DNA from: Demequina subtropica
Lineage (GTDB): Bacteria; Actinomycetota; Actinomycetes; Actinomycetales; Demequinaceae
Assembly: GCF_000971235.1 (NCBI RefSeq)
Contig: NZ_BBMB01000015.1
Span: 1 to 64,000, forward strand
Direction: 5' to 3'
DNA length: 64,000 nucleotides
Shown: piece by piece, positions 18,310-41,811 of the stretch
How positions within the stretch are numbered: the first letter of the stretch is position 1
Layout: every line of letters begins with the position of its first letter
The notes under the pieces: model-generated
Seen by the model: only the letters and a program-made list of their open reading frames with translations
Database searches by the model: none
Told to the model about the DNA's origin: nothing
Position numbers and translations under genes: made by a program

Positions 18310-18345
18310 AGCGCCGCGCCCAGCGCCGCGCCCGGCGCCGCGCCC
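18310..18345. repeat. Three copies of a 12-bp GC tandem repeat
   Basis: AGCGCCGCGCCC occurs twice and GGCGCCGCGCCC once, head to tail, between the choice-of-anchor I promoter and ilvD. No function is evident; slippage is likely to make the copy number variable. Confidence 0.7.
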
Positions 18346-34106: not shown

Positions 34107-39968
<5,862 letters not shown>

Positions 39969-39974
39969 CCTTCG

Positions 39975-40003
39975 AGTGTCGAACGGGCGGGACCGCCGGT
40001 CAA
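39975..40003 (-). promoter_or_regulatory. Promoter of the SARP regulator gene
   Basis: On the minus strand TTGACC (39998-40003), 17 bp, GACACT (39975-39980), then six bases to the GTG start. It is a near-consensus promoter for a leaderless transcript. Confidence 0.7.
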
Positions 40004-40016
40004 ACGCTCGGCGCGC

Positions 40017-40070
40017 CGTGCATACCGCGTGCATACCGGCCGTCGGGACGTGCATACCGGGGCGATACGC
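40017..40070. promoter_or_regulatory. Direct-repeat array CGTGCATACCG between the SARP gene and the lipoprotein gene
   Basis: Three exact copies of CGTGCATACCG occur at 40017, 40028 and 40049. Copies 1 and 2 are exactly 11 bp apart; copy 3 is 21 bp on. A degenerate fourth unit (GCGATACG) starts around 40060. Heptameric direct repeats at 11-bp intervals just upstream of a -10 are how SARPs bind. A weak -10 (TGATCT, 40079-40084) lies eight bases after the last unit. Confidence 0.7.
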
Positions 40071-40113
40071 GGCGGGTGTGATCTGAAGGTGACCAGGGGA
40101 GGAGGTGAGGAAG

Positions 40114-40551
40114 ATGAGGACCACGCTGAACTGCCGGACCGGTGCTTGCGGACCGGGGATGGCGAAGGGCCTCGGCGCCGTGGTCGGGCTCGCTGGTGCG
40201 GTCGTGCTGTCGATGACCGCGTGCGCGACGCCGGACGACACCGAGACTCCGGGCGCCGACACCCAGGCCGTCGGGTACGTGTACTCGGGCGGCTCCTGGG
40301 GTTCGCTGGAGGCCGCGAGCGACACCGACGAGGACGATGCCTACGTGCCGATGTCCTGCGTGCCGAAGGGGGCGTACGGCGAGTCGGAGGACGAGGACGA
40401 TGCCTACGTGCCGATGTCCTGCGTGCCGAAGGGGGCGTACGGCGAGTCGGAGGACCAGGACGCCTACGAGCCGATGACCGGAGGCCTGCCGGACTATGCA
40501 CAGCCGGACGGCGAGCCGATGACCGGAGGCCTGCCGGACTATGCCCGGTAG
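40114..40551 (+). CDS. Small putative lipoprotein with internal tandem repeats
   Basis: A 145-residue protein, not recognised. A hydrophobic segment (GLGAVVGLAGAVVLS) ends in MTAC, a plausible lipobox. The mature part is acidic and built of repeats: two identical 21-residue units containing DAYVPMSCVPKGAYG, then a related DAYEPM unit, then EPMTGGLPDYA twice. Each 21-mer has one Cys. GGGGAGGAGG precedes the ATG at 40114; a GTG at 40105 is less likely. A terminator hairpin follows. It is transcribed away from the SARP regulator, sharing its control region. The repeat-protein/SARP pairing recalls AfsS beside AfsR, without detectable homology of the repeats. A multi-core peptide precursor is an alternative, though no modifying enzyme is adjacent. 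Confidence 0.7.
   Translation: MRTTLNCRTGACGPGMAKGLGAVVGLAGAVVLSMTACATPDDTETPGADTQAVGYVYSGGSWGSLEAASDTDEDDAYVPMSCVPKGAYGESEDEDDAYVPMSCVPKGAYGESEDQDAYEPMTGGLPDYAQPDGEPMTGGLPDYAR
40327..40452 (+). repeat. Perfect 63-bp tandem duplication inside the lipoprotein gene
   Basis: Bases 40327-40389 and 40390-40452 are identical by eye, giving two 21-residue units. DNA-level identity implies recent duplication or ongoing homogenisation. A second, 45-bp-period repeat (EPMTGGLPDYA units, from 40468 and 40513) follows. Confidence 0.9.
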
Positions 40552-40570
40552 TGCTGCACCGTCGCGTCAC

Positions 40571-40599
40571 CAGGGGAGGTCCCCATCCGGACCTCCCTG
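40571..40599 (+). terminator. Terminator of the repeat lipoprotein gene
   Basis: CAGGGGAGGTCC and GGACCTCCCTG pair with a one-base bulge, 20 nt after the stop. Confidence 0.65.
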
Positions 40600-40641
40600 T
40601 TCCGCTGCCACCGTTCGGGCCCGCGTGGCGCGCCTCAGCCG

Positions 40642-40660
40642 CGTCTCGCGATGCGAGACG
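40642..40660 (+). promoter_or_regulatory. Palindromic operator upstream of leuB
   Basis: CGTCTCGC-GAT-GCGAGACG is a perfect 8-bp dyad. A -10-like TAGGAT (40688-40693) lies 27 bp downstream, 60 nt before leuB. It may bind a leucine-pathway regulator such as an IclR-type protein; the regulator is not in this window. Confidence 0.55.
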
Positions 40661-40752
40661 GGTTCCCCAACATGTGGACACTTCCCCTAGGATGGAGGCA
40701 GAGCCCGCGGCCCGATGACGGGGCGGGTCAGCATCCGACCGAGGGAGAACCG

Positions 40753-41811
40753 ATGACCACCTACCGCCTCGCAGTCGTCGCCGGCGACGGCATCGGCCCG
40801 GAGGTCGTAGCGGAGGGGCTCAAGTGCCTCGCCGCCGCGACCGAGGGCACCGACATCACGTTCGAGACCACCGAGTTCGACCTCGGCGCCAAGCGCTGGC
40901 ACGCGACGGGGGAGACCCTCACGGACGCGGACCTCGAGGCGATCAAGGGTCATGACGTCATCCTGCTCGGCGCGATCGGCGACCCGACCGTGCCGTCCGG
41001 CGTCCTCGAGCGCGGCCTGCTGCTCAAGCTCCGCTTCGAGCTCGACCAGTACGTCAACCTCCGTCCGTCGCGCCTCTACCCGGGCGAGGTCTCGCCGCTG
41101 AGCGAGCCCGGCGACATCGACTTCGTCGTGGTCCGCGAGGGCACCGAGGGGCCGTACGTGGGCAACGGCGGCGCGCTGCGGGTCGACACGCCTCACGAGA
41201 TCGCGACCGAGGTCTCCGTCAACACCCGTCACGGCGTCGAGCGCGTGGTCCGCTACGCGTTCACCGTCGCGCAGGGCCGCGACCGCAAGCACGTCACGCT
41301 GGTCCACAAGCACAACGTGCTGGTCCACGCGGGTCACCTGTGGCGCCGCACGGTCGAGGCCGTCGCTCCCGAGTTCCCGGACGTGACGTGGGACTACCTG
41401 CACGTGGACGCGGCGACCATCAAGCTGGTCACCGCGCCCGCATCGTTCGACGTGATCGTCACCGACAACCTGTTCGGCGACATCCTCACGGACGAGGCCG
41501 CGGCGATCTCCGGCGGCATCGGCCTCGCGGCCTCCGGCAACGTCAACCCCGACAAGACCGGGCCGTCCATGTTCGAGCCGGTCCACGGCTCGGCGCCCGA
41601 CATCGCGGGCAAGGGCATCGCGGACCCGTCCGCGACCGTCCTCTCGGTCGGCATGATGCTCGACTTCCTCGGCCACAAGGACCTCGCTCAGAAGGTCGAG
41701 GACGCGGTCGCGGCCGACGCCGCGGCCAAGGTCGCCGAGGGTGCCGAGGGCAACGGCCCGCGCTCCACCTCCCAGGTCGGCGACGCGATCGCCGCCCGCA
41801 TCCGCGGCTGA
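40753..41811 (+). CDS. leuB: 3-isopropylmalate dehydrogenase
   Basis: Oxidatively decarboxylates 3-isopropylmalate in leucine synthesis, NAD-dependent. It has 352 residues, the actinobacterial LeuB length. Motifs are [39 protein letters not shown], the metal and substrate residues in [19 protein letters not shown], and [27 protein letters not shown] precedes the ATG. It is a single gene followed by a long palindrome and then ilvE, so partial co-transcription with ilvE is possible. Confidence 0.96.

Follow-up and report, generated by a model that had tools for sequence, protein, structure and literature searches.

The best-known role of SARPs is to activate antibiotic clusters. Membrane-bound one-component regulators of the ToxR/CadC type have an OmpR-type winged helix in the cytoplasm, a single membrane helix and an extracytoplasmic sensor, and Apaf-1 is a soluble protein with a caspase-recruitment domain, a STAND NTPase and two WD40 propellers. 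In AfsR of Streptomyces coelicolor the SARP DNA-binding domain and the BTAD domain are followed by a STAND-type NTPase, and, at its activation target afsS, the 11-bp direct repeats of the afs box overlap the -35 region; the general rule given for SARPs is that direct repeats lie 11 or 22 bp apart and that the 3' repeat is located 8 bp from the -10 (available portion of PMC10936776). The SARP-LAL protein PimR, which controls the regulator of a polyene cluster, acts on operators of three and of two repeats that do not overlap the -35 region and requires at least two monomers (available portion of PMC5930380).

The window, i.e. the whole stretch of 64,000 nucleotides from Demequina subtropica that was analysed, carries a gene for a large regulator related to these proteins, P0001, with the following parts.

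35721-39968, minus strand: regulator P0001, 1415 amino acids, SARP-nSTAND1-transmembrane helix-propeller
39255-39686, minus strand: BTAD domain, residues 95-238 (Pfam, 110.4 bits, cut-off 22.1)
38178-39194, minus strand: nSTAND1 NTPase region (Pfam, 261.6 bits)
37953-38009, minus strand: predicted transmembrane helix, about residues 654-672, with a basic N-terminal flank
35724-37943, minus strand: predicted extracytoplasmic double propeller, residues 676-1415 (AlphaFold2, Foldseek, invariant cysteines)

P0001 has the architecture of a SARP, in which BTAD comes after an OmpR-type winged helix at the N-terminus, with the qualification that the winged helix (Trans_reg_C) scores 23.1 bits in Pfam, under the cut-off of 26.2, at the expected place ahead of BTAD. 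A propeller-type Pfam match is also present. Of 32 homolog readings, 29 show the hydrophobic segment with its basic N-terminal flank between nSTAND1 and propeller; the remaining three end at or before the segment, two at the edge of the fetched DNA and one at a stop codon. The C-terminal 740 residues were modelled by AlphaFold2 with a mean pLDDT of 87.8, and in Foldseek the model resembles WD40 double propellers with strong E-values and low TM-scores (0.26-0.35), a combination which suggests that the two propellers may be arranged differently. A pair of cysteines close to the C-terminus is invariant (19/19) and fits an extracytoplasmic location. P0001 appears to span the membrane, with SARP and NTPase inside and the double propeller outside, a topology that we infer from these predictions. 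Since the predicted helix places the domains in this way, an extracytoplasmic signal would be the likely input. A second SARP-type domain is encoded in the same genome (G000:C21:46556-47194); it reaches 112 bits to the SARP-domain profile and has no strong nSTAND1 match.

P0001 shares with AfsR the succession of SARP DNA-binding domain, BTAD and STAND-type NTPase and, in front of its exported neighbour, a likely counterpart of the afs box, again made of 11-bp direct repeats at the place of the -35 region. Where AfsR has a TPR domain, P0001 has the predicted membrane helix and outer double propeller, and it scores 113.4 bits against the AfsR equivalog of NCBIfam, whose cut-off is 1430, and falls outside that family. 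The half-sites also differ, CGTT(T/C)ATCGNN for AfsR (in the part of PMC10972967 at hand) versus CGTGCATACCG at the P0001 array. Operators of three and two repeats recall those of PimR; unlike the SARP-LAL proteins, P0001 does not contain a guanylate-cyclase/LAL C-terminal half (Pfam), and nSTAND1 and the propeller-type match are found instead. The predicted layout, with a DNA-binding domain inside, a helix and a sensor outside, resembles the ToxR/CadC type, from which P0001 differs by the BTAD and nSTAND1 domains between DNA-binding domain and helix and by a predicted double propeller as putative sensor. Like Apaf-1, which appears at rank 25 when the propeller model is compared by Foldseek, P0001 combines a STAND NTPase with two subsequent WD40-like propellers; unlike Apaf-1, its effector is a transcription activator and a predicted membrane helix separates NTPase and propellers. 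A membrane SARP of this type was not found by title or abstract among the matches listed from the open-licence literature. The words WD40, transmembrane and membrane do not occur in the available main text of a SARP review (PMC10972967), BTAD is absent from the available parts of PMC7159879 and PMC5587647, and SARP is absent from that of PMC7159879 as well. In P0001 a single polypeptide unites the SARP effector with a STAND NTPase, a predicted membrane helix and an outer propeller, and it comes with a rigid, recognisable operator and an exported partner. This opens to experiment the question of how a STAND protein might pass a signal from outside on to RNA polymerase.

The repeat array is located in the 145-bp gap between the leftward regulator gene and a rightward gene for a 145-amino-acid protein, P0002. 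The features of this region and of P0002 are as follows.

39975-39980, minus strand: -10-like hexamer of the regulator, GACACT (17-bp spacer; 6 bp ahead of the GTG start)
39998-40003, minus strand: -35-like hexamer of the regulator, TTGACC (GTCAA at the same place in 11/11 Demequina relatives listed and in other genera)
40017-40027, plus strand: putative operator unit 1, CGTGCATACCG (exact match; ATACC here in 7/7 linked Demequina promoters compared)
40028-40038, plus strand: putative operator unit 2, CGTGCATACCG (exact match, 11 bp past unit 1; ATACC in 7/7)
40049-40059, plus strand: putative operator unit 3, CGTGCATACCG (exact match, 21 bp past unit 2; ATACCG in 6/7)
40060-40070, plus strand: putative degenerate operator unit 4, GGGCGATACGC (ATAC in 6/7 linked Demequina promoters compared)
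40079-40084, plus strand: -10-like hexamer of the exported gene, TGATCT (T....CT in 7/7 linked Demequina promoters compared; sequence)
40100-40105, plus strand: AGGAGG, likely ribosome-binding site of the exported gene (sequence)
40114-40551, plus strand: P0002, predicted exported protein, 145 amino acids (hydrophobic N-terminus, lipobox-like motif, internal repeats)
40327-40452, plus strand: two perfect 63-nt tandem repeats in P0002
40467-40544, plus strand: two perfect 33-nt repeats in P0002, encoding EPMTGGLPDYA

This array is very probably the operator through which P0001, as a membrane-spanning SARP activator, would turn on P0002. The first-pass annotation had described three identical 11-mers, two of them 11 bp apart, and a degenerate fourth unit 8 bp ahead of a possible -10, and both descriptions are borne out. 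The copies start at 40017, 40028 and 40049, and the start spacings across units 1-4 are 11, 21 and 11. Unit 4 agrees with CGTGCATACCG in 5 of 11 letters, its ATAC sits 11 bp past the ATAC of unit 3, and exactly 8 bp (40071-40078) lie between it and TGATCT. The annotated distance of 14 bp between the array and the -35 of the regulator also holds when counted from start to end, with 13 bp between TTGACC (40003-39998) and unit 1.

Three copies of any 11-mer occurred in 0/5000 shuffles of the 145-bp intergenic region, and no 11-mer was found three times within 60 bp in 300 shuffled windows. The real window holds the CGTGCATACCG array and one other triple, GCGCCGCGCCC, three times at 12-bp spacing in a GC-only run (18311-18345). 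The 3.08-Mb genome contains four exact copies of CGTGCATACCG, three of them in the array; the fourth (C12:89883) lies inside a coding ORF and was taken as chance. As a single word the 11-mer is not enriched once mismatches are allowed, neither in the window (27 matches with up to two mismatches, 26.6 expected) nor in the genome (52 with up to one mismatch, 56 for the reversed control). Single-word counts were therefore dropped as evidence, and the signal is the phased array rather than the word. A motif that is common and unphased across the genome had been named as the refuting outcome; the proposed scan for the phased pair gave no such abundance, with only two matches at up to one mismatch in the own genome, the array itself and C19:161429.

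Conservation of the operator was analysed in 15 full-length or near-full-length relatives of P0001 that were collected by protein search, without use of the motif. Exact 8-mer repeats upstream of these regulators were observed at a shift of 11 bp in eight, 21 bp in six, 22 bp in two and 32 bp in five of them, and elsewhere in the range of 8 to 60 bp only the shifts 33 and 34 were positive, with one regulator each. In shuffles, an exact repeat at 11 bp was obtained for a mean of 0.07 and at most 2 of the 15. When seven of eight matching letters were accepted, 14/15 regulators had a repeat at 11 bp (shuffles: mean 0.9, largest 5); the sole exception is G074, with no repeat upstream. In the exact and the relaxed comparison alike, the windows of G038, G063, G124a and G124b had been placed after their sites were known. 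Individual units vary: G030c and G024 have degenerate ones, unit 4 is missing in G030a and unit 3 in G030b. G124 encodes two regulators of the P0001 type, whose repeats read ATATCG and GTACCG at equal spacing, which suggests that site and neighbour change together. G176, found with the propeller alignment, provides an independent check: ATACCG is present at 0, 11 and 33, followed by 8 bp and GAACCT ahead of a lipoprotein-like ORF of about 102 amino acids, with TTGACG on the regulator side (all read by eye). The perfect 63-nt and 33-nt duplications in P0002 indicate that local duplication does occur here, which could be extended to the array as a functionless product of slippage or chance; as the core sequence, its phasing and its distances to both promoters are shared between genera, the probability of this origin is practically negligible.

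Outside the linked Demequina promoters 28 sites were compared, many of them from related species (Kribbella 6, Nocardioides 5, Agromyces 5); 26 have a hexamer of the form NA...[TC] exactly 8 bp past the last unit, and at the other offsets from 0 to 25 this form appears in only 0-7 of the 28. The count is made without G030c, G024, G025 and G074, in which the last unit is unclear, and without L108, L148 and L203, which are duplicates of G037, G022 and G040. The linked Demequina promoters have this form in 0/8 cases and show T....CT instead in 7/8, the window's included; neither hexamer form, and nothing resembling a -10, is found at 8 bp in G038. The locus thus follows the SARP spacing rule, with repeats 11 or 22 bp apart and 8 bp to the -10, the window having a weaker -10 (TGATCT) and a degenerate last unit. 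Together with the repeats of the relatives at 11, 21-22 and 32 bp, the 26/28 sites support the original reading of the array as a SARP operator on grounds of position and period. New with respect to that reading are the predicted membrane span of the regulator, the exported repeat protein as the product of the target gene and a second site in front of an unlinked exported-protein gene.

A -35-like hexamer at the usual distance from the -10 of P0002 was not found in the sequence, and a scan for consensus promoters and terminators detected none. We infer binding and activation from this arrangement: SARP domains of P0001 would dock next to each other on the 11-bp direct repeats, and those units that lie closest to the exported gene would replace the missing -35 and bring RNA polymerase to the -10 located 8 bp past the last unit. 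P0002 would be activated in this way, by the mechanism described for AfsR at the afs box (PMC10936776). This step may be controlled by the outer propeller together with the STAND NTPase, which would relay an extracytoplasmic signal.

As a DNA pattern, the operator can also be used to look for more such systems and their targets. A pattern-only scan (ATACCGNNNNSATACCGN{13,15}SATACCG) of an 84,980-species collection matched at least 118 stretches. Among the matches listed (at least 118), 21 stretches contain a gene resembling P0001, and for all but one of them, L198, i.e. in 20, the site lies just upstream of this gene in divergent orientation; four of the 21 (L108, L148, L203 and L194) are genomes already in the comparison. 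The hosts include Kribbella, Nocardioides, Agromyces, Cellulomonas, Demequina and MAGs of Acidimicrobiales and Nitriliruptorales. Judged by these sequences, the arrangement of regulator, putative operator and exported gene is maintained in several actinobacterial groups. Ninety-seven of the listed stretches have no P0001-like neighbour, many of them in Roseovarius and other Rhodobacterales (L093-L210); these three-unit matches without such a regulator may belong to a repeat element of another kind.

Across 44 Demequina genomes, 15 matches to the pair pattern were obtained when one mismatch was allowed, of which nine are located beside the regulator, five upstream of unlinked genes for exported proteins and one in a coding ORF (G037:C33, oxidoreductase-like, taken as chance). 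The count itself is no enrichment over the 10 of the reversed control, so location was used as evidence in its place. The unlinked exported genes form two families, of 218 and 155 amino acids. The first is present in G000 (own genome, G000:C19:160710-161363), G002, G019 and G038, with another set of coordinates at L061:779-1435 (minus strand); it has no Pfam match, and all four genes are preceded by two units 11 bp apart, the first of which reads AGTACCG in G038. In G063, from another family of the order, a homolog of the 218-amino-acid protein is the divergent partner of a regulator there. The second family occurs in 2/44 genomes (G016 and G030), again with two units 11 bp apart upstream in both. 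A -10-like hexamer 8 bp past the second unit is found in 5/6 unlinked exported-gene sites. Going by these copies, at least one unlinked gene for an exported protein in its own genome is probably a further target that P0001 activates via a two-unit site.

Full nSTAND1 regulators are encoded in 9/44 Demequina genomes, and the pattern is matched in eight of these nine and in two of the 35 others, G016 and G019. In all nine the module is inserted between ilvC and leuB, with three modules in tandem in G030. The gap between ilvC and leuB is a Demequina hotspot (window 34648-41811; L048, L057 and L058), and C-terminal remnants of the regulator persist there as scars of 52 residues in G019 and 27 in G006. 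In G016 and G019 no SARP above background was detected, though the exported-gene sites are kept (L088 = G016:C15; L080 = G019:C30), an observation that counts against the SARP reading. Weak OmpR-type DNA-binding matches (26-28 bits) exist in both genomes, and AfsR and PhoP have a common site at afsS (in the part of PMC10972967 at hand), so that the repeats might be bound by another OmpR-type regulator such as PhoP, which uses 11-bp direct-repeat sites too. The position of the site beside the regulator in 20 of the 21 listed loci with a P0001-like neighbour and the different repeat letters of the two G124 regulators at equal spacing make this very unlikely, and the G019 site may be a relic, given the regulator scar kept between ilvC and leuB.

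The regulator gene would have a promoter of its own, whose -35 is close to the consensus. All 17 pattern-scan loci examined that have a facing regulator carry TTGAC near unit 1, at 8 bp in 12 of them and at 18-19 bp in five, and in each it is followed by a spacer of 17-18 bp, a -10-like hexamer and a start codon 6-7 bp further on (18-bp spacers and start-codon distances read by eye). Such a short distance suggests that the regulator mRNA is probably leaderless. The two sites L120_2 and L198, which have no regulator facing them, lack TTGAC. The position of unit 1 relative to the regulator promoter would also suit an array that serves P0001 mainly for autoregulation or repression, with units 1-2 controlling the regulator promoter or the array blocking the exported gene. 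This is unlikely, as the repeats are directed toward the exported gene, for which no -35-like hexamer is seen at the usual distance, and as sites at unlinked exported genes, with no adjacent regulator, mostly keep the 8-bp distance from second unit to -10. Activation of the exported gene by P0001 remains the preferred reading.

The exported partners differ in sequence among loci. Internal repeats that were matched by 0/200 shuffles were identified in 12 of 33 exported candidates (7 Demequina, 5 Agromyces; 21 without), those of the Demequina partners being mostly of the EPMxGGxPxYA type, and lipobox-like motifs were flagged in P0002, G040, G124a, L101, L117, L120, L155 and L163. An adjacent ORF with a hydrophobic N-terminus accompanies the site in 34/39 rows (G074 doubtful), a figure that is not an independent test of export since the choice of ORF required this feature. 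P0002 belongs to no family in Pfam or NCBIfam and gave no match to plasmids; of four other exported proteins compared with Pfam, three had no match and one had two sub-threshold matches. The alignments were made without L214 (exported proteins) and without the L054 row, which was in the wrong frame (SARP).

It is possible that the repeat peptides of the partner are what the propeller senses, and they are attractive candidates for this role. The full form of this idea, a self-contained transmembrane peptide switch in which the outer propeller of the membrane SARP would read tandem peptides released from its own exported target, is tentative and on balance doubtful; the peptides would be EPMxGGxPxYA in Demequina and other tandem peptides in Agromyces, and the response would be to turn on the own and the unlinked exported genes. 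If true, the switch would represent a two-gene signalling class across several actinobacterial orders. In Agromyces sp. ISL-38 the array is enlarged, with five ATACCG units (0, 11, 33, 44 and 66, from L155:4752 onward), and the partner beside this five-unit operator contains three near-identical repeats of 25 amino acids.
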